The position numbers were made by a program, and so were the translations under genes. Below, in pieces: positions 5,256-52,629 of a stretch of 64,000 bases of DNA (position 1 is its first letter; every line of letters begins with the position of its first letter). Origin of the DNA: Pseudanabaena sp. PCC 6802 (lineage in GTDB: Bacteria > Cyanobacteriota > Cyanobacteriia > Pseudanabaenales > Pseudanabaenaceae); assembly GCF_000332175.1 (NCBI RefSeq), contig NZ_KB235914.1, positions 2,910,868-2,974,867 of the forward strand, read 5' to 3'. The notes under the pieces are model-generated. The model searched no databases. It was not told the DNA's origin and saw nothing but the letters and a program-made list of their open reading frames with translations.

Positions 5256-5894
5256 TTAAGAGCCATTATAGCGGTTTTCAGATGGCTTATGCTTTGCCAA
5301 CTTCAGCGCCGACAACAACAGAATTGTACCCAAAATCAAGTACAACAGGGAACTTGATACATATCTCAAAAGACTACTACCAATAAACGCGCCCAGAATT
5401 GAGCCAGATGCCATTGAACCGATAAACCCTTGCTCTGATTTAACTTCCTTAAGTCTTTGCTGGCTTCTGTATTTGAATAGGCCCATCACAATTGTTGGAA
5501 TGCCGATCGCAAGGCTTAAACTCCCTGCTAATTTGATATCCACTGCAAACAACAAAATGATTGTTGGGATAATTAACTCACCACCTGCCACACCTAACAT
5601 ACTGCTGAAGATCCCAATGATGATTCCTGCTACAAGGCCAAAGCTGATTCTTAGGAGGCTCGGCAGTTGGAAACTTCCAAGACTGAAAATGAGATTGTGC
5701 CCTATCAATACAACAACGAATGAAAATGTTACTGTGACCAAGCTGACAATGAGATTGATAATAATGGCTTGCAGGGTTCGATAGTTGAAAATACTCACTA
5801 GAACAGGTAGGCGAAACTCTGCCCCGCCCAAACCAATTAGTCCACCCAGAACCCCAACCAAAGCTCCCCACGCAAAAGACTGAATATTTCGCAT
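5256..5894 (-). CDS. TauE/SafE family membrane permease
   Basis: 212 residues, almost entirely hydrophobic, with about seven membrane helices and the internal duplication typical of TauE/SafE (formerly DUF81): GALVGVLGGLIGLGGAEF near the N-terminus and GIFSSMLGVAGGELIIP in the middle. The family exports sulfite, sulfoacetate or other small anions, or imports organosulfur compounds; the substrate here is unknown. It is slightly shorter than the usual 240-270 residues. The last residues (SENRYNGS) are encoded by a solo end of repeat family B, so the original C-terminus may have been replaced. It lies upstream of the FAD oxidoreductase. Confidence 0.85.
   Translation of the reverse strand: MRNIQSFAWGALVGVLGGLIGLGGAEFRLPVLVSIFNYRTLQAIIINLIVSLVTVTFSFVVVLIGHNLIFSLGSFQLPSLLRISFGLVAGIIIGIFSSMLGVAGGELIIPTIILLFAVDIKLAGSLSLAIGIPTIVMGLFKYRSQQRLKEVKSEQGFIGSMASGSILGAFIGSSLLRYVSSSLLYLILGTILLLSALKLAKHKPSENRYNGS
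5267..5283. repeat. Solo terminal repeat of family B
   Basis: The 17 bases match the end of the family B elements at 15051 and 52580 (TATAGCGGTTTTCAGAT). No partner end is nearby. It encodes the final residues of the TauE-type permease. Confidence 0.6.
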
Positions 5895-8247: not shown

Positions 8248-8420
8248 ATTTCGAGATTATTTAACTCTCTAACGATGTAATAATGACTCTTCCCGTTTGA
8301 TAGTCTACTACAGTCACACATGCACCAAAGTGTAATTTGAGAGCAAAAATACTCAGAAAACCTAAAGCATTTGTTAAACTTTACTGTGATGTCAGTAAAT
8401 TCAAGTAGGGCAAACTATCC

Positions 8421-9362
8421 TTGCAAACTATCAAACTTGGATCTAGCGGCTTGTCAATTCCGCCCTTGGGAATCGGAACTTGGGCTTGGGGCGACAAGTT
8501 ATTTTGGAACTACGGTAAAGACTATGGTGAAGCCCAGGTCAAAGATGCCTTTAAAGCTGCCCTCGATGCTGGTATTAACTTCTTTGACACAGCCGAAGTT
8601 TACGGCTTAGGCGAATCGGAGCGTCTACTGGGGCAATTCGCACGCGGTAATAAACAACCGATTTGCATCGCCACGAAGTATATGCCCGTTCCCTGGCGCA
8701 TTAATGCTAAAGCTGTCAAGGATGCGGTGACGGCCAGTCTGGAACGCTTGCAGGTGAAGAAGATCGATCTGTATCAGGTGCATCAACCCATAAGTTTCAT
8801 GATGAATCAGAAAACCCTCATGAATGCACTTGCTGACGAGGTCAAACAGGGTCGGATCGTTGCAGTTGGCGTGAGTAATTACTCCGCCGAACAGATGAGG
8901 GAAGCCCATAAACTTTTGCGCGATCGCGGTATCCCCCTCGCCGTCAATCAGGTAAAGTACTCCTTGCTAGATCGGCAAATTGAAACAAATGGCATTCTAG
9001 ATGCGGCGCGATCGCTCGGTGTTAAGATCCTCGCCTACGGCCCCCTAGCACAGGGATTGCTAACGGGTAAATATACATCAACTCAAACGCCCACCGGCGC
9101 AAGGCAACTCGATGCTCGCTTCGGCAACGATAACCTGTTCAAAGTCGAACCGTTGCTAAAACTATTGCGCCAAACTGCCGAGCAACATAACGGCACGCTT
9201 GCCCAAGTGGCGCTAAACTGGCTGATTGCCAAGGGGGTCGTACCAATTCCCGGTGCTAAAAACGCAGAACAGGTCCGCCAAAATGCGGGTGCATTAAACT
9301 GGCAACTCTTGCCTGAAGAAGTTTCCATACTAGATCGCGCTAGCCTCGAATGGCGGAAGTAA
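8421..9362 (+). CDS. Aldo/keto reductase
   Basis: 313 residues, TTG start with AGTAGGG about 10 bases upstream; no ATG in this frame fits the family N-terminus (MQTIKLGSSGLSIPPLGIGTW). The (beta/alpha)8 barrel catalytic tetrad is visible: D56 and Y61 in FFDTAEVYG, K86 in IATKY, H121 in YQVHQP. The NADPH-binding end is present (GVVPIPGAKNAEQV). The family reduces aldehydes and ketones with NADPH in the cytosol; the natural substrate is unknown. It is divergent from ndhF, with about 170 bp between them as the shared promoter region. Confidence 0.9.
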   Translation: MQTIKLGSSGLSIPPLGIGTWAWGDKLFWNYGKDYGEAQVKDAFKAALDAGINFFDTAEVYGLGESERLLGQFARGNKQPICIATKYMPVPWRINAKAVKDAVTASLERLQVKKIDLYQVHQPISFMMNQKTLMNALADEVKQGRIVAVGVSNYSAEQMREAHKLLRDRGIPLAVNQVKYSLLDRQIETNGILDAARSLGVKILAYGPLAQGLLTGKYTSTQTPTGARQLDARFGNDNLFKVEPLLKLLRQTAEQHNGTLAQVALNWLIAKGVVPIPGAKNAEQVRQNAGALNWQLLPEEVSILDRASLEWRK

Positions 9363-12360: not shown

Positions 12361-12461
12361 CTATATAACATGATTTCCATTGACGGGGTGAAGGGGGTCT
12401 ACCCCTTCTTGGGGGCAACGCCCCCAAACCCCCTTCTCGTTTTCATCTGAAAACCGCTATA
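12361..12461. repeat. Family B miniature element, copy 1 (left end degraded)
   Basis: The right end CTGAAAACCGCTATA and the GC-rich core (GGGGTGAAGGGG, TTGGGGGCAACGCCCCCAA) are intact. The left terminal repeat is not recognisable; the boundary given is approximate. Confidence 0.7.
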
Positions 12462-15046: not shown

Positions 15047-15050
15047 AATA

Positions 15051-15159
15051 TAGCGGTTTTCAGATCAGAAAGATCAGGGGGTTTGGGGGCGTTGCCCCCA
15101 AGAAGGGGTTCCACCCCTTCACCCCAAAAATAAAACCCGTTCTCAAGTGAAAACCGCTA
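15051..15159. repeat. Family B miniature element, copy 2, interrupting NB-ARC/WD40 gene
   Basis: 109 bp from TAGCGGTTTTCA to TGAAAACCGCTA, flanked on both sides by TA (15049-15050 and 15160-15161). Removing the element plus one TA restores an open frame across the junction reading E-Q-A-I-L-Y-W. With the duplicated TA the insertion is 111 bp, a multiple of three, but it brings four in-frame TGA codons. Confidence 0.9.
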
Positions 15160-16273
15160 TAGCTTGCTCCAGAGCGGAGAGGCGCTGCATTTGCTTAGCG
15201 AGCAGTTGCCGCAGCCCATTGAAAACCCCGTGACCTTGTTGGAGAAATTGCGTGATATTTCCTCCAAACAGTTCGCAAATCGTAGTGGAAACGATTTTGA
15301 GTACCAGTGGATGTCCTCGGTAATAGTCGATCAATCGATCGATCTCTGCTGCCGAACCAGTTATACCTTTGCTATTAAGCACCCGCTGGCTCGATATCGC
15401 ATCCAATCCCGTTAAGTAAAAAGTGCGCACGGGGAAGCGATCGCCTTCTAAGGCATCGATACCCTGGGGCTTCTCCCGGCTGGTGAGCAGGACACAACTA
15501 GCGTGATTGAGTTCGCCCGCATATTGCAGTAATTCGTGATATCCCTCACAGGCAGGTTGAAATACTCCACCTTGCTGTCCGCTCTGCAACAGCATGTCGA
15601 AGTTATCCAGAATCACAAGGCAGCGTTTTTGGCGCAGATAAGCAATTAATTGTTCGAGTTTAGCCGCTACCGTTGTAGGGATGGATGTGTCAGGGGAGGG
15701 GGCGAGAAATTTCAGCAGTCCGTTCAGCAGTTCGTCAAGCGGTGGGGCAGATTTGAGCGATCGCCAGATCAAAACCTCAAATTGCGGTTGCAGGGTTTGC
15801 GCCAGCCGAATCGCCAGCGAACTTTTACCAATACCACCCATCCCCAGAATGCTAACCAGCCGACAGCGATCTTCCGCGACCCATCGACTCAGGGTGGCGA
15901 CCTCACTGTCACGTCCATAAAAATGGGGAGCATCGGCGGCAGTGTCCCAGTCAGCGTGGCAGTGCGATATTGCTGTTGTTTCAGGATGAGGATTGGTTGT
16001 GGGGCGAGATTTAGACTCTTGATAGCGGCGCAGGATCGTCTGAAAGTTACTTTTAGACACCCTCAGGCTCATTACTTTCGACAGCCGTTGCCAGAGCCGA
16101 AACCCCACAGTACGGATATAGTCATCGTCGTACCCCGTTATTTGGGCAATCTCAGCGTAGGTTTTACCCTCGCTACAGTAGCGAATCATCAATTCCTCTA
16201 AATTGCTGAGCGAGTTGGGTGCTAAGACAGCATCCAAAACCAACAGCGCTTCCCCAAAAGACCAATCAGTCAT
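15143..16273 (-). pseudogene. NB-ARC/WD40 protein, 5' fragment (sensor HTH-like plus NTPase)
   Basis: 376 residues, ATG at 16273. Residues 1-85 (EELMIRYCSEGKTYAEIAQI, YIRTVGFRLWQRLSK, SKSNFQTIL) match the helix-turn-helix-like N-domain common in cyanobacterial NTPase/WD40 proteins. Residues 118-376 are an NB-ARC ATPase: FYGRDSE, Walker A GMGGIGKS (144-151), Walker B CLVILDNFD and a sensor LLTSREKP. The frame ends in IAVFT plus TGA, all encoded by the inserted element. A truncated NTPase without its propellers would lack the sensing domain. Confidence 0.88.
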
Positions 16274-29249: not shown

Positions 29250-29519
29250 ATGCCAGTTACATTGCCACCAGAACTAGAGCAGTTTATCCAAAGTCAAGTC
29301 GCTAGCGGTAAGTATGCCTCTGTTGATGAGGTATTTTTAGCGGGTATTAAGCTATTAGAGGAACGAGAACGCCTTTATCAAGGGCGATTTGAAGAATTAC
29401 GCCGTGAGGTTTTGGTTGGGGTCGGGGAAGCCGAGCAAGGCAAACTATTAGAGGCAGAAGCGGTAATAAGTGAGTTGCAAGAGAAATTGCGCCAACGCCG
29501 CGTTCAGAGCGATCCATGA
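29250..29519 (+). CDS. ParD-like antitoxin
   Basis: 89 residues. Ribbon-helix-helix start (VTLPPELEQFIQSQVASGKY, SVDEVFLAGIKLLEE), followed by an acidic helical tail that would wrap the toxin. Antitoxins of this kind repress their own promoter and neutralise ParE. The stop overlaps the toxin start by four bases (ATGA), the usual translational coupling of such modules. Confidence 0.88.
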   Translation: MPVTLPPELEQFIQSQVASGKYASVDEVFLAGIKLLEERERLYQGRFEELRREVLVGVGEAEQGKLLEAEAVISELQEKLRQRRVQSDP

Positions 29520-29827
29520 GCAATTCTTGTAGAATCACACCAACAGCAAGTCGAGACATAGAGAGTATTATGGACTATCTTGCTGAGAAGGTGAGTTTTG
29601 AGATGGCAGAGCGTTTTCTTCAGAAGATAACCGAGAAATTTAAATTGCTAGCCAAGTTTCCTCAAATAGGACGAGGGCGAGATGAATTATATCTCGGCTT
29701 GCGGAGTCTACCCTTGGAAGAATACCTCATCTTTTATCGTTTAGTGCCTGAGGGAATCGAGGTGATGCGAGTGATGCCTGGCTATCGCGATCTGGGTGCG
29801 CTATTTGCTGAAACTGATGAAGGCTAA
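29516..29827 (+). CDS. ParE/RelE superfamily toxin
   Basis: 103 residues. Typical fold: ITPTASRDIESIMDYLAEK helix pair, FPQIGRGRDEL, SLPLEEYLIFYRL and IEVMRVMPGYRDL. The RDEL and YRD-type residues favour ParE (gyrase inhibition) over RelE (mRNA cleavage), but the target cannot be proved from sequence. The frame looks intact. Confidence 0.88.
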   Translation: MSNSCRITPTASRDIESIMDYLAEKVSFEMAERFLQKITEKFKLLAKFPQIGRGRDELYLGLRSLPLEEYLIFYRLVPEGIEVMRVMPGYRDLGALFAETDEG

Positions 29828-36250: not shown

Positions 36251-36889
36251 CTACGCTGCATCCCAAACAATCAGTCGAATTGGGGTGGGATTGTAAGCGT
36301 TACATGGATTATTAATCTGCGGACAGTTGGAGATCAAAACCATGACATCCATCTCAGCCCGTAAATCTATATGTTTCCCAGCTTCCGATATACCATCCAC
36401 AATCTCCAATGTGCCATCAGCATTCACAGGGACGTTCATATAGAAATTGATGTTGCTGACCAAATCCCGCTTGTTCATTTCATACTTGCTGAGTTCCAAC
36501 AGGTAGTTTTCCACACAAGCATGCAGGTGTTTTTTGTGCAATCCATAGCGGACGGAGTTACTTTCCATGCTACAGGCTCCGCCCAGCGTGTCGTGCCTGC
36601 CGCAGGTGTCGGCAATTACAGTCATCATCACGTTGCCCTCATTGGACATCAATCTAGTGCCCGTGGTGATAAAAATATTCCCTTGCCGAACGACTGTATC
36701 AGGTGCGCTATAGCGTTCTGAAGTGTCATCGGCTTTATAGATAATCGTATCTACTGCCTGATTCCCCTGTAAATCGATAATGCGCAGAATCTGACCTTTG
36801 CGAATCACCTTCGACCAGGGCTGGCGTGCTGCCAGTTCTTCATCGTAAATCGCATTTGCTGGATTGAGTTCGATTGCTGTTGCCACCAT
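36251..36889 (-). CDS. DUF1989 protein, probable carboxyguanidine deiminase subunit
   Basis: 212 residues, ATG with GGAGGAAA upstream. DUF1989 ('urea carboxylase-associated protein') features: IRKGQILRIIDLQGNQAVD, TIIYKADDTSERY, ADTCGRHDTLGGACS with conserved Cys/His residues expected to bind zinc, NINFYMNVPV, GKHIDLRAEMDVMVLISNCPQ and NPCNAYNPTPIRL. Paired DUF1989 proteins have been shown to form carboxyguanidine deiminase (CgdAB), turning carboxyguanidine into allophanate and ammonia. I do not assign A or B. It lies 37 bases upstream of the carboxylase in the same operon. Confidence 0.85.
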   Translation of the reverse strand: MVATAIELNPANAIYDEELAARQPWSKVIRKGQILRIIDLQGNQAVDTIIYKADDTSERYSAPDTVVRQGNIFITTGTRLMSNEGNVMMTVIADTCGRHDTLGGACSMESNSVRYGLHKKHLHACVENYLLELSKYEMNKRDLVSNINFYMNVPVNADGTLEIVDGISEAGKHIDLRAEMDVMVLISNCPQINNPCNAYNPTPIRLIVWDAA

Positions 36890-37075: not shown

Positions 37076-37834
37076 CTACACCTGCGCGAATAATACATCC
37101 GTGTTGATAAAGCCGCGTTTGACTTCCTCATTCGCAGTCCGACATAGATCTTCGTCAGATGGAGCAGGCGATTTCCAGACTGTAAGCTGAATCGACTTGG
37201 GACGATACACTGTATCGGGGTGCAGTACATGGGGACAATTGGATACGATCGCTAGCACGTTCATTTCAGCCCTCAAATCCACAAAGCTACCAGGCTGTTC
37301 GCAGCCGCTGACATATTGCAAGTTTCCCTCAGGAGAAACCGCCACTCGACTGAATAGATTCACGTTGGGCATTAAGTCTTTGCGGGTAAGACCTCGCTTG
37401 CTAAGTGCCTTGAGGAAATTATTGCGAGAGTTGTTGTAATCGCTCTCTCCGTATTTATTGTAGGGACCTTGGCCGTACTTAGCCAGATTGCTCGCGGCAT
37501 TACTACAACCGCAAATCAAATCGTGATAGCCAGAAGTATCTTCAGTGATGGAGAATAGAATCCGCCCCATGTCTGAGTACATCACCATCCCTTTCTTTAA
37601 AAAGGCATTGAATTGAATCTTGGCTGTATCGGCTACATTCAAGCGTTCGATAGGGCTGTCGGCATTATAGCAAACGAGCGAAACGCCTTGAGAACCCTCC
37701 AGATCGGTGATGCGTAGCGTGTTGCCCCGTTTGATGATTCCATGCCAATAGGCTCCCCCTGGCAGTTTTTCATCTAATAGAACTAATTCGGGGGCGATCG
37801 CGGCATTCAGCATTGATGCAACGGTTTGTACCAT
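37076..37834 (-). CDS. DUF1989 protein, probable carboxyguanidine deiminase subunit
   Basis: 252 residues from ATG 37834, which has GGAG seven bases upstream. Longer starts up to 37903 lie inside the riboswitch expression platform and are unlikely. DUF1989 pattern: PGGAYWHGIIKRGNTLRITD, VSLVCYNADSPIERLN, FSITEDTSGYHDLICGCSNA with the probable metal-binding His/Cys set, and VDLRAEMNVLAIVSNCPHVLH. Partner of the DUF1989 gene at 36251; first gene of the operon after the minus-strand riboswitch. The tail (about 225-252) is charged and lacks the short end of its partner. Confidence 0.85.
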   Translation of the reverse strand: MVQTVASMLNAAIAPELVLLDEKLPGGAYWHGIIKRGNTLRITDLEGSQGVSLVCYNADSPIERLNVADTAKIQFNAFLKKGMVMYSDMGRILFSITEDTSGYHDLICGCSNAASNLAKYGQGPYNKYGESDYNNSRNNFLKALSKRGLTRKDLMPNVNLFSRVAVSPEGNLQYVSGCEQPGSFVDLRAEMNVLAIVSNCPHVLHPDTVYRPKSIQLTVWKSPAPSDEDLCRTANEEVKRGFINTDVLFAQV

Positions 37835-37873: not shown

Positions 37874-37930
37874 AAAGCCCAGGAGCTTATCAACCATCAT
37901 CAAGTGGGATGGTTTGACTCTCCCGGGCTT
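37874..37930 (-). terminator. Expression-platform hairpin of minus-strand guanidine riboswitch
   Basis: AAAGCCCGGGAG, which forms part of the riboswitch 3' domain, can instead pair with CTCCTGGGCTTT (complement of 37874-37885). The following bases GGTTGTT are T-rich but not a clean T run, so it could be a weak terminator. Confidence 0.55.
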
Positions 37931-38083
37931 TTATCCCGCCGTGTAGCCAATAAACTACTCTTCTAGAAAACAGTTACCGCAATGGAACTTATATTCTTAC
38001 GAGCAAAATCGGCCCGCTTCTCTTGGACCAGTCACTTAATATTGCACTTGCCTAGTGTTATTAAGCCGGAACCCTAGAAGCAC
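37918..38083 (-). promoter_or_regulatory. Guanidine-I (ykkC) riboswitch controlling the carboxylase operon
   Basis: Read on the minus strand, the conserved blocks appear in order: CTAGGGTTCCG (complement near 38068-38078), ACTGGTCCAAGAGAAGC (complement near 38016-38032) and ACGGCGGGATAAAAGCCCGG followed by GAGAG (complement of 37918-37943). These are the hallmark blocks of the ykkC class I guanidine aptamer. The long variable stem between the second and third blocks is about 70 bases. It precedes the first DUF1989 gene by about 85 bases. Guanidine binding is expected to prevent the downstream hairpin and switch the operon on. Confidence 0.92.
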
Positions 38084-38106
38084 TCCTTTTATTATTGAGC
38101 ATGCCA

Positions 38107-38215
38107 TAGCGGTTTTCAATTGAGAACGGGTTTCACTGACGGGGTGAAGGGGGGGTACCCCTTCTTGAGGGCAACGCCCCCAAACTCCCTACTCTTTCCG
38201 ATCTGAAAACCGCTA
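38107..38215. repeat. Family B miniature element, copy 3
   Basis: 109 bp from TAGCGGTTTTCA to TGAAAACCGCTA, in opposite core orientation to the copy at 15051. TA is kept on the right side; on the left it reads CA. It lies between the two divergent riboswitches, in the probable promoter region. Confidence 0.88.
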
Positions 38216-38385
38216 TATTGGTTAGATTTAAGAATATCACTCTTAGATCGTATTTTTTAAGTTACTGAAAATTGTAAGACCGATTTGTAGCCTGAGACAC
38301 TTTCCGATCGTTTAGAGCATGTATCATGATCGCTAGAATTTATTTCATGTTGTTTAATTACTGTATTTCAGCCAGGTAAAATTTA

Positions 38386-38520
38386 GCTTCTAGGGTTCCG
38401 ATTCTCAAACGCAGTTCGAGAACGTCTGGTCCGAGAGAAGCAAGTTGCGAATATTTGGGTAGCCGCTCTAAGAGCCATGCTCTATCGCAATAGCACGGCG
38501 GGATAAAAGCCCGGGAGGAA
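38386..38520 (+). promoter_or_regulatory. Guanidine-I (ykkC) riboswitch controlling the ABC importer
   Basis: Blocks in order: CTAGGGTTCCG (38390-38400), TGGTCCGAGAGAAGC (38427-38441) and ACGGCGGGATAAAAGCCCGG (38494-38513), with GAACG/CGTTC-type stems between. It agrees with the ykkC class I consensus as closely as the minus-strand copy. The expression platform is a strong terminator at 38505-38565, so this is an ON switch. The importer operon starts about 90 bases downstream. Confidence 0.93.
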
Positions 38521-38565
38521 CTAGTAGCTTGCTTGCAAGTCGCTGTCCTCGCGGGCTTTTGTTTT
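38505..38565 (+). terminator. Riboswitch-controlled intrinsic terminator
   Basis: AAAAGCCCG.GGAGGA (38505-38519) pairs with TCCTCGCGGGCTTTT (38546-38560), followed by GTTTT. The 5' arm overlaps the last aptamer block, so ligand binding and termination exclude each other. Confidence 0.85.
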
Positions 38566-38611: not shown

Positions 38612-39655
38612 ATGAGCCTGCGATCGCGATTATTCAATAATGTTTTTTTGTGCCTAGCTAGCCTGATACTGGTTGTAAGTTGCTCTAATCCAGCCAATCA
38701 GGTGGCGACCCAGTCGCCTCAAACTCAAAGCAGCAGTAATTTGGTACGCCTCGGATTTAGTGCTTGGCCTGGATGGTTTCCCTGGCAAGTTGCCCAAGAG
38801 CAAAAAATTTTTGCTAGTAAAAATGTGGAAGTGGATTTGAAATGGTTTGATGGCTATTTGGAGTCGATTAATACTCTAACCGCCGGACAAATTGATGCCA
38901 ATTCCCAAACCCTGAACGATACGATTACTGCGGTGGCTGGTGGCGCAGATCAGGTGGTGGTTCTGGTCAACGATAACTCCACCGGCAATGATAAAATTAT
39001 TGCGCGAGAAGGTATTAATAGCGTTAGCGATTTAAAAGGAAAGAAGGTAGCAGCAGAAGAAGGTACTGTAGATCACTTCCTATTACTTCTGGGCATGCAA
39101 AAAGCAGGGTTGAAGCCTTCCGATATTACCTTTGTGCCATTGGAAACTGGTAAAGCGGCGGCGGCTTTTGTGGCTGGACAGGTGGATGCTGTAGGTGTGT
39201 TTGCTCCATTTACAACGCAAGCGCTAAAACGACCTGGTAGCAAGGAACTATTTAGTTCCAAGGACTTCCCTGGCGCAATTCCCGATCACCTTGTCTTCAA
39301 TCGCAAATTTATCGATGCCCACCCCGATCGCGTTCAATCCATGGTTGATGCGTGGTTTGCTACGCTCGATTACATTAAGGCCAATCCCGAGCGATCGATT
39401 GAGATCCTGGCGAAACGAGCCAATGTCAGCGTAGATGAATATAAGGAATACGCCAATGGCACAAAGATTTTTACAATTGAAGAGAATTTGCAGGCATTTC
39501 AGCCAGGGAATGATATGTCATCTCTACAGTTTGCGGCAGGACAAATGTCGAAATTCCTCACGCAAGTCGGCCTGACTAAAGCCCAACCCAATCTGGACAA
39601 GCTATTCGACGATCGCTTTGTTAAAGCCTATGCTGCTAAAGCGAAGTCTAAATAG
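38612..39655 (+). CDS. ABC transporter substrate-binding lipoprotein, SsuA/TauA-like (putative guanidine import)
   Basis: 347 residues from ATG 38612; ATG 38588 would add eight. Signal segment FLCLASLILVVSC with lipobox VVSC, then a Ser/Gln/Thr linker. Mature protein has the NMT1/THI5/SsuA fold: VRLGFSAWPGWFPWQVAQEQ, LTAGQIDANSQTLNDTI, DLKGKKVAAEEGTVDHFLLL, AAAFVAGQVDAVGVFAPF. Homologues are labelled nitrate, sulfonate or taurine binding; the guanidine riboswitch just upstream argues for guanidine or a guanidine derivative. First gene of a three-gene importer operon. Confidence 0.88.
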   Translation: MSLRSRLFNNVFLCLASLILVVSCSNPANQVATQSPQTQSSSNLVRLGFSAWPGWFPWQVAQEQKIFASKNVEVDLKWFDGYLESINTLTAGQIDANSQTLNDTITAVAGGADQVVVLVNDNSTGNDKIIAREGINSVSDLKGKKVAAEEGTVDHFLLLLGMQKAGLKPSDITFVPLETGKAAAAFVAGQVDAVGVFAPFTTQALKRPGSKELFSSKDFPGAIPDHLVFNRKFIDAHPDRVQSMVDAWFATLDYIKANPERSIEILAKRANVSVDEYKEYANGTKIFTIEENLQAFQPGNDMSSLQFAAGQMSKFLTQVGLTKAQPNLDKLFDDRFVKAYAAKAKSK

Positions 39656-39681: not shown

Positions 39682-40533
39682 ATGCCCGAAGAAGTTCATC
39701 CCCCATCAATTCGCGATCGCTTGAAGCCAAAGTCCTTGCGCCCATCAGTATTCTGGCGAATTTCTGAAGATATTCCACCAAAGCTTAATTTGATACTGGT
39801 AATAGCTTCGATTTTGGCTCCGCTATGCGTGTGGTGGTTAATGACAGCATTTGGTGGCATCGATCCGACTTTCTTACCATCACCGCAGCAGGTGATAGCT
39901 GCAGGGGAGAGGTTGTGGGCTTCGGGCGATCTACAGAAAGATACGATTGCGAGTCTATGGAGAGTAGGTGTAGGATTTCTACTATCATGCCTCATCTCAA
40001 TTCCAATTGGTCTATTCATGGGCAGTTTTCGCAGTATCCGCGCTTTGCTAGAGCCTTTGTTTGGATTGATGCGATACATGCCCGCCCCAGCGTTTATTCC
40101 CCTATTGATTCTCTATCAGGGAATAGGAGAAGAACCCAAAATTACTTTAATCTTTATTGGCACATTTTTCTTTAATGCCTTGATGGTAATGGATACGGTG
40201 AAATTTGTGCCAAAGGAATTAATCGAAGCCACGTACATGCTGGGGGGCAATCGCCTTGCCACAGTAATGCAGGTTATCTTTCCTCATGTGGTGCCAGGGA
40301 TTTTGGATGCCTGTCGCATTAACCTGGCAGCAGCTTGGCAGTTGGTAATTGTAGCAGAATTAGTAGCTGCAACTGAGGGATTAGGGCGACGTATTAGCGT
40401 TGCCGGACGCTTTCTCAGAACTGATGAGATTTTTGTTGGCATTATCGTAATTGGACTGATTGGTTTGGTATTCGATCTGTTGTTTCAGTATATTTTGCGA
40501 TTGACTTGTCAATGGGCCAGTCCCGAACGATGA
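39682..40533 (+). CDS. ABC transporter permease, SsuC/TauC-like
   Basis: 283 residues with about six membrane helices, the first at about 37-57 (LNLILVIASILAPLCVWWLM). The ATPase-coupling EAA loop is visible as ELIEATYMLGGNRLATVMQVIFPHVVPGI. It follows the binding protein by 26 bases and precedes the ATPase. The large number of aromatic residues near GLMRYMPAPAFIPLLILYQG is typical of the family. Expected in the plasma membrane. Confidence 0.9.
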   Translation: MPEEVHPPSIRDRLKPKSLRPSVFWRISEDIPPKLNLILVIASILAPLCVWWLMTAFGGIDPTFLPSPQQVIAAGERLWASGDLQKDTIASLWRVGVGFLLSCLISIPIGLFMGSFRSIRALLEPLFGLMRYMPAPAFIPLLILYQGIGEEPKITLIFIGTFFFNALMVMDTVKFVPKELIEATYMLGGNRLATVMQVIFPHVVPGILDACRINLAAAWQLVIVAELVAATEGLGRRISVAGRFLRTDEIFVGIIVIGLIGLVFDLLFQYILRLTCQWASPER

Positions 40534-40591: not shown

Positions 40592-41365
40592 ATGTTTCTC
40601 CAAGTCAACAATCTGAGCAAGCGATTTCAGACCCGAAACGGCGATCTACTAGTACTCAAGGACATTAACTTTGCGATTTCTCAAGGCGAATTTGTCTGCG
40701 CTGTAGGTGCTTCAGGTTCTGGTAAATCAACTCTCCTGCGCCAAATTGCTGGTTTGGATCGCCCTAGCCAGGGGGAGGTACGCATTGATGGGCAGTGCGT
40801 TACGGGGCCGGGTTCAGATCGTGGTATGGTGTTTCAACACTACACGCTGTATCCCTGGATGACCGTGCAGGAAAATGTGGAATTCGGATTGAAATTGCAG
40901 GGGATTGCCAAATTAGAACGCCGGAAGCAGGCCAGCTATTATCTCAGCGTGGTGGGGCTGACGAAATTTGCGAAGGCGCTTCCTAGGGAATTATCCGGTG
41001 GGATGAAGCAAAGGGTTGCGATCGCGCGAGCACTAGCTTCCGAACCCAAAATTTTACTTATGGATGAACCCTTTGGCGCGTTGGATGTCTATACCAAAGA
41101 AGCCATGCATGAATTTATGCTAGACCTATGGCAGCGCACGCAAATTACAGTATTTACGATCACCCATGATGTTGAAGAAGCAGTATTTCTGGCGAATCGC
41201 ATTTTCGCCTTGAGCGCTCGTCCTGGCACGATTAGTAAGGAACTCAGAATAGATCTACCTCACCGTACCAGCGATATTAAACGGCATCACCGCTTTTATG
41301 ATTACCGTGATGAGTTAATGAATTTGCTGCGACAACACGGACAAGAAGCGGCAATCCTGGCTTAA
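40592..41365 (+). CDS. ABC transporter ATP-binding protein, SsuB/TauB-like
   Basis: 257 residues. Walker A GASGSGKST, Q-loop MVFQHYTLYPW, signature LSGGMKQR, Walker B ILLMDEPFGALD and the switch His in TITHDVEEA are all intact. Energises the SsuC-like permease. Third and last gene of the importer operon; a family A repeat follows at 41463. Confidence 0.92.
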   Translation: MFLQVNNLSKRFQTRNGDLLVLKDINFAISQGEFVCAVGASGSGKSTLLRQIAGLDRPSQGEVRIDGQCVTGPGSDRGMVFQHYTLYPWMTVQENVEFGLKLQGIAKLERRKQASYYLSVVGLTKFAKALPRELSGGMKQRVAIARALASEPKILLMDEPFGALDVYTKEAMHEFMLDLWQRTQITVFTITHDVEEAVFLANRIFALSARPGTISKELRIDLPHRTSDIKRHHRFYDYRDELMNLLRQHGQEAAILA

Positions 41366-52296: not shown

Positions 52297-52427
52297 GTAG
52301 GAATTGCGTGAAAATAAAATACCCACTGTTACGGCTAATGCCTAACGTGCTACGGCTTTTGGGCATTATTTGGCTGCAAGTTCCTAAATAAGGGCAATGC
52401 CTACCCTAAATGCGATATTTCTGCATA

Positions 52428-52580
52428 TAGCGGTTTTCACTTGAGAATGGGTTTTATTGACGGGGTGAAGGGGTTCCACACGGCAGTGGCTCTAGCGGGA
52501 AACCCCCAAGACCGCCCTGCCTCCCCTTCTTGGGGGCAACGCCCCCAAACCCCCTGCTCTTTCCGATCTGAAAACCGCTA
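52428..52580. repeat. Family B miniature element, copy 4, with extra 44-bp segment
   Basis: 153 bp from TAGCGGTTTTCAC to TGAAAACCGCTA, flanked by TA on both sides. Inside, about 44 bp (CACACGGCAGTGGCTCTAGC and more) are added to the standard core. It has split a perfect inverted repeat: TTTCTGCATA on the left, TTTCC-AT-TGGAAATATGCAGAAA on the right. Confidence 0.88.
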
Positions 52581-52629
52581 TATTTCCATTGGAAATATGC
52601 AGAAACGAGGAAGGAAGGATTTATGGGAC

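Follow-up and report, generated by a model that had tools for sequence, protein, structure and literature searches.

The stretch of DNA analysed here, a window of 64 000 nucleotides from Pseudanabaena sp. PCC 6802, contains an intergenic region from which two operons diverge, each preceded by a guanidine-I aptamer (Table 1). The plus-strand operon encodes an ABC importer, whose substrate-binding protein exceeds the TIGR01728 cut-off and matches TIGR03427 at 159 bits, below the cut-off of that model; judged by its context, which also supplies the presumed importer substrate, this protein is probably guanidine-binding. The minus-strand operon encodes two DUF1989 proteins and a biotin-dependent carboxylase. 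UAAP1 and UAAP2 are reportedly the deiminase subunits CgdA and CgdB, and by homology the two products from the window would be subunits of a carboxyguanidine deiminase.

Table 1. Features of the divergent guanidine-I locus (positions are those of the window; T, transporter side; D, degradation side)
Feature	Position	Strand	Evidence
Biotin-dependent carboxylase, 1218 aa	32581..36213	-	TIGR02712, 1890 bits; start set at ATG 36213 (mechanical ORF from 36237)
UAAP2/CgdB-like DUF1989 protein	36251..36889	-	TIGR03424, 353 bits, above cut-off
UAAP1/CgdA-like DUF1989 protein	37076..37834	-	TIGR03425, 297 bits, above cut-off
D hairpin	37874..37932 (read 37932-37874)	-	shares AAAGCCCGGGAG with aptamer D; fold about -30 kcal/mol
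Aptamer D, guanidine-I	37918-38088	-	RF00442, 75.5 bits, E 1.3e-11
Possible degradation-operon promoter	38091..38119	-	TTGAAA-17-AATAAT, 10/12, consensus match only
MITE-like element, 111 bp, between the switches	38106..38216		inverted termini ATAGCGGTTTTCA
Possible transporter-operon promoter	38311..38339	+	TTTAGA-17-TAGAAT, 9/12, consensus match only
Aptamer T, guanidine-I	38379-38519	+	RF00442, 76.4 bits, E 7.8e-12
T hairpin and U-tract, intrinsic terminator	38505..38565	+	shares AAAAGCCCGGGAGGA with aptamer T; fold about -32 kcal/mol
ABC substrate-binding protein, SsuA/NrtA/TauA-like	38612..39655	+	TIGR01728, 244 bits, above cut-off; PF09084/PF13379; start set at ATG 38612 (mechanical ORF from 38585)
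ABC transporter permease	39682..40533	+	PF00528
ABC transporter ATPase	40592..41365	+	PF00005; best matches nitrate/sulfonate/taurine-type ATPases

When the whole 64 kb was scanned with cmscan against Rfam at the gathering threshold (a score of 63 for RF00442), exactly two matches were obtained, both to Guanidine-I and both full-length (model positions 1-107), and these are the only copies in the Pseudanabaena genome (6 contigs, 5.62 Mb, 99.7 % complete). The first-pass annotation had recognized two divergent guanidine-I riboswitches, back to back, from conserved ykkC blocks lying about 300 bp apart on opposite strands. The covariance model, which it had proposed as a check, gives a significant match on each strand, and the three blocks of the two aptamers are inverted repeats (15/15, 15/16 and 24/24 matches), the aptamer 5′ ends being 290 bp apart. 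Over this region no other Rfam family gave a meaningful score, even with the E-value limit relaxed to 10; the permissive scan thus showed nothing resembling a ppGpp- or PRPP-type ykkC subtype 2 variant, which is weaker evidence than a ligand test. Compensatory changes were found at 0 of 14 aptamer pairs because the core is too invariant, so that the structure is neither supported nor weakened by covariation.

The competing hairpin that had been noted after each aptamer is present on both strands, with the last aptamer block, AAAGCCCGGGAG, as its 5′ arm, and the outer ends of the two hairpins delimit the region first singled out (37874-38565). The T hairpin (38505-38560, with a 15-nt inverted repeat at 38505-38519/38546-38560 as its arms) is followed by UUUUGUUUUCG, a canonical intrinsic terminator tail, whereas the D hairpin is followed by the weak U-tract UUUGGUUGUUAUG. 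A simple terminator scan detected no terminator because its loop limit is 8. Across the family, T hairpins (-30 to -33 kcal/mol) have, in most cases, UUUU at their end and a U-rich stretch thereafter, while D hairpins (-30 to -32 kcal/mol) end in CUUU followed by a poor tail (CGCUAUUG in relatives, where the hairpins carry the tail CUUUCGCUAUUG, and GGUUGUUAUG in the window). The number of U residues per 12 nt of tail is 7-10 for T and 6-7 for D among family members, and mostly 7-8 for D-type tails in other cyanobacteria. T and D are not a matched pair: a canonical U-tract follows the importer hairpin, a weak one the degradation hairpin. Both switches are inferred to act at the level of transcription, with less certainty for D, where termination may be inefficient given that the U-tract is poor in every family member. 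Downstream of the D hairpin, the D leaders of G005-G027 share the sequence CTTTCGCTATTG...ATGC.CTTC, which is conserved between genera, has no obvious role and is accounted for by neither a terminator nor a Shine-Dalgarno sequence. A leader peptide in the D leader was also considered; open frames are visible by eye in relatives, but they overlap the hairpin arm and their start sites are not conserved, and no such peptide is proposed here.

The MITE-like element between the switches is absent from the aligned relatives. Its termini (ATAGCGGTTTTCA) occur eight times in the window, against 0.1 expected, with further copies at 15050-15160 and 52427-52581 and termini at 5268-5280 and 12448-12460. 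One terminus would possibly supply TTGAAA as the -35 box of the highest-scoring minus-strand promoter match. The NtcA-like motif GTAN8TAC was found in the intergenic regions of G005, G006, G010, G022, G027, G122 and G277 (at about 8725 in L192 and about 6397 in L193), which suggests that nitrogen control by NtcA may act on top of the riboswitches there; the intergenic region of the window contains no GTAN8TAC, only GTAN10TAC. Elsewhere in the window (29250-29827), two overlapping small genes resemble, by eye, a ParD/ParE-type toxin-antitoxin pair.

Guanidine-I was found in 10 of the 38 genomes of the order, and 8 of these 10, belonging to three genera, carry exactly two switches, divergent and on one contig. 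In G007 the two switches, like the two halves of the locus, lie on separate contigs, and G031 has a single switch on a fragment bearing the transporter half only. The gene order of the window together with the paired switches recurs in G005, G008, G010, G020 and G022, while in G006 the carboxylase was not found on the locus contig. Lineage signatures that separate T from D (GGGAGGA versus GGGAGAGTCAA) are constant across the three genera, and both switches therefore predate the split of these genera. In a phylum sample of 386 genomes, guanidine-I was present in 121, and a close divergent pair was found in the Pseudanabaena genome only. Other arrangements comprise two same-strand switches in tandem, with an operon behind each (G166), a single switch for all six genes (G136), a switch at the degradation operon with another on a different contig (G222, G097 and G314), and divergent transporter and CgdAB genes with a switch on the degradation side only (G122 and G277). 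The divergent gene layout thus also occurs outside the family, whereas every divergent switch pair encountered in these cyanobacteria belonged to a member of the family. The premise that guanidine-I aptamers are usually single leaders holds broadly, although tandem pairs and two separate switches occur in other cyanobacteria. A carboxylase scan beyond cyanobacteria returned mostly other biotin carboxylases and four true relatives, with guanidine-I, as a same-strand pair, in only one of those genomes.

One relative has lost the importer: in G027 (L071, 7812-9000) the importer genes are absent, a transposase-like ORF (8327-8980) adjoins the switch and the sequence 3′ of the T aptamer has been replaced. 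In the orphan T aptamer, 4 of the 50 columns that are invariant in the other 18 aptamers are altered, against none in the D aptamer; compared with the close relative G022, T shows six changes, four of them at invariant columns, and D two, neither at an invariant column. Although these numbers are small, their direction is that expected if selection had relaxed on a switch left with no genes to control. The cgdA gene of G027 appears frameshifted.

The specificity of the carboxylase was approached through a single residue. Residue 711 of the window enzyme is Asp (GTIDFTGD), and the K. lactis urea amidolyase has Asn (GAINFTGD) at the aligned site, which we take to be the substrate-selecting residue, position 1330 of KlUA. 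Among the cyanobacterial carboxylases of the phylum sample, Asp occupies this site in 9 of 10, and the tenth, with Asn, belongs to G373, the only one of those ten genomes without a guanidine-I match. As a consistency check, the split between Asp and Asn tracks the presence of guanidine-I and therefore supports the residue as substrate-selecting. An exception is G008 (L067), whose carboxylase has Asn through a single base change (GAT to AAT) while both guanidine-I switches are intact. The literature likewise contrasts Asp in guanidine carboxylase with Asn in the urea type, giving no position number (PMC12186494). The minus-strand enzyme is, on these grounds, probably a guanidine carboxylase.

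The claim that import and degradation are placed together under the two switches is supported by the layout, its recurrence in relatives, the family models and the Asp residue, but the regulon is incomplete. Contrary to the first-pass annotation, which had called it complete, the last published step is missing: allophanate hydrolase (AtzF) has no TIGR02713 match above the cut-off anywhere in the Pseudanabaena genome, where the single amidase is GatA, as judged from its ORF. The locus counts as the first two steps of the guanidine carboxylase pathway and not as the complete pathway. A split or unusual allophanate hydrolase was considered in the form of a stand-alone protein resembling the AtzF C-terminal domain (L021, G000:C5:3976995-3977408); its gene is also present in relatives without guanidine-I and hence is not tied to the locus. 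Nor was an arginase-family guanidinase of the GdmH type, a candidate alternative degradation enzyme, found in the genome (no PF00491 match).

A urease is present in the Pseudanabaena genome, and urea can arise from allophanate by spontaneous decarboxylation (PMC7700744; PMC3944691). With urease present and AtzF missing, allophanate would therefore decay to urea, which urease would split. In the phylum sample, AtzF was found in eight genomes, all eight with the carboxylase; the carboxylase genomes without AtzF (the Pseudanabaena genome and G166) both have urease, and those without urease (G122, G277 and G373) all have AtzF. Within the family, AtzF exceeds the cut-off in G005 and G006 only.

Taken as a whole, the locus is very likely a divergent, guanidine-inducible import-plus-carboxylation system, its response to guanidine, the transported substrate, the enzyme activities, the passage through urea and the promoter positions all being predictions. 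When guanidine is absent, AAAGCCCGGGAG in either leader would pair with the downstream arm, and the resulting hairpin would halt transcription before the genes. When guanidine is present, the aptamer would retain this segment and both operons would be transcribed. The ABC importer would then bring guanidine in, guanidine carboxylase would carboxylate it, and CgdA together with CgdB would deiminate the product to allophanate and ammonia; allophanate is expected to lose CO2 spontaneously, and the urea formed would be split by urease. The fuller proposal of AtzF-less guanidine assimilation through the carboxylase and CgdAB, with allophanate passing via urea to urease and the whole driven by a divergent pair of one tight and one leaky switch, is put forward tentatively and has somewhat less than an even chance of being correct.

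The leaky element of this proposal corresponds to asymmetric control, which is compatible with the main explanation and according to which T stops transcription tightly as an intrinsic terminator whereas D leaks or does not act by termination; degradation enzymes would then be made at a basal level, and import would depend strictly on guanidine. The contrast in U-tracts is consistent across genomes (T 7-10 versus D 6-7 in 12) and the sequence after the D hairpin is kept between genera, but the D tail of the window (UUUGGUUGUUAUG) is better than those of its relatives, most D-type tails of other cyanobacteria have 7-8 U in 12, and the T and D hairpins are about equally stable; both the asymmetry and its physiological corollary are possible, though rather doubtful.

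Two further readings compete with that of a guanidine assimilation locus. That the minus-strand operon is a urea carboxylase system, with guanidine control being incidental or serving detoxification, is very unlikely, even though the matched family models bear the name urea carboxylase, the G008 enzyme has the urea-type Asn and a urease is present, so that urea is already handled. The window enzyme and most of its switch-linked relatives have Asp at the selective site. At all examined cyanobacterial loci but two, the carboxylase follows a guanidine-I switch and genes of the CgdAB type; the two are G373, where the enzyme carries Asn, and G277, where the carboxylase gene is separate from the CgdAB genes. 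It is likewise improbable, if to a lesser degree, that the locus is decaying, as a pathway broken without allophanate hydrolase and in the course of being lost. Such decay would account for the missing AtzF in the Pseudanabaena genome, the lost importer and broken cgdA of G027 and the lack of guanidine-I in many genomes of the order; however, the six genes and both aptamers of the window are all intact, several AtzF-less genomes keep the layout, and the distant G166, which is also AtzF-less, has an intact locus. A guanidine-controlled import-plus-carboxylation locus is the preferred reading.

The literature searched yielded no account of the divergent switch pair, although part of it may be covered by Itzenhauser et al. 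2025, reportedly a study on cyanobacterial guanidine riboswitches in PNAS. Known RF00442 riboswitches share with both strands of the window the complete model match and the terminator-type competing hairpins; the window differs in that a back-to-back pair serves two operons and in the weak U-tract of the degradation copy. In the sll1077 region of Synechocystis PCC 6803, an ABC importer, the Ni guanidinase GdmH and hypAB-like genes are found, and both organisms have guanidine-I ahead of an SsuA-family ABC importer and a degradation enzyme (PMC8390497, PMC12186494), whereas the window uses the carboxylase route with no arginase-family guanidinase and has two divergent operons. Loci of Raoultella, Klebsiella and Erwinia likewise combine an importer, carboxyguanidine deiminase, guanidine carboxylase and two guanidine riboswitches, but there guanidine-I is followed by guanidine-II, the genes are consecutive and allophanate hydrolase is included (PMC12186494), in contrast to the two divergent guanidine-I switches of the window and its lack of allophanate hydrolase. 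The same carboxylase and associated genes were interpreted as urea catabolism by Veaudor et al. 2019 (PMC6737895), who listed uc-ucp1-ucp2 clusters as urea genes in Pseudanabaena biceps PCC 7429 and Synechococcus PCC 7502, drew a ykkC-yxkD leader in Cyanothece PCC 7425 and noted uc without ah; their text mentions neither guanidine nor a divergent switch pair. The components (guanidine-I, the ABC importer, the carboxylase route and switch-controlled importer-plus-enzyme loci) are known, while the arrangement appears to be new and is conserved, and the carboxylase route here is apparently AtzF-less.

The locus provides a natural opposite-facing pair of one riboswitch class, kept within a single intergenic region in three genera, and G027 a natural case of loss, in which a switch is mutated where its genes are gone. 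The analysis also points to guanidine as the substrate behind cyanobacterial genes listed under urea carboxylase, and to a carboxylase route that, in some cyanobacteria, lacks the final enzyme and depends on urease in its place. If this holds true, the detour via urea would spend ATP for the same products as are obtained with a guanidinase.
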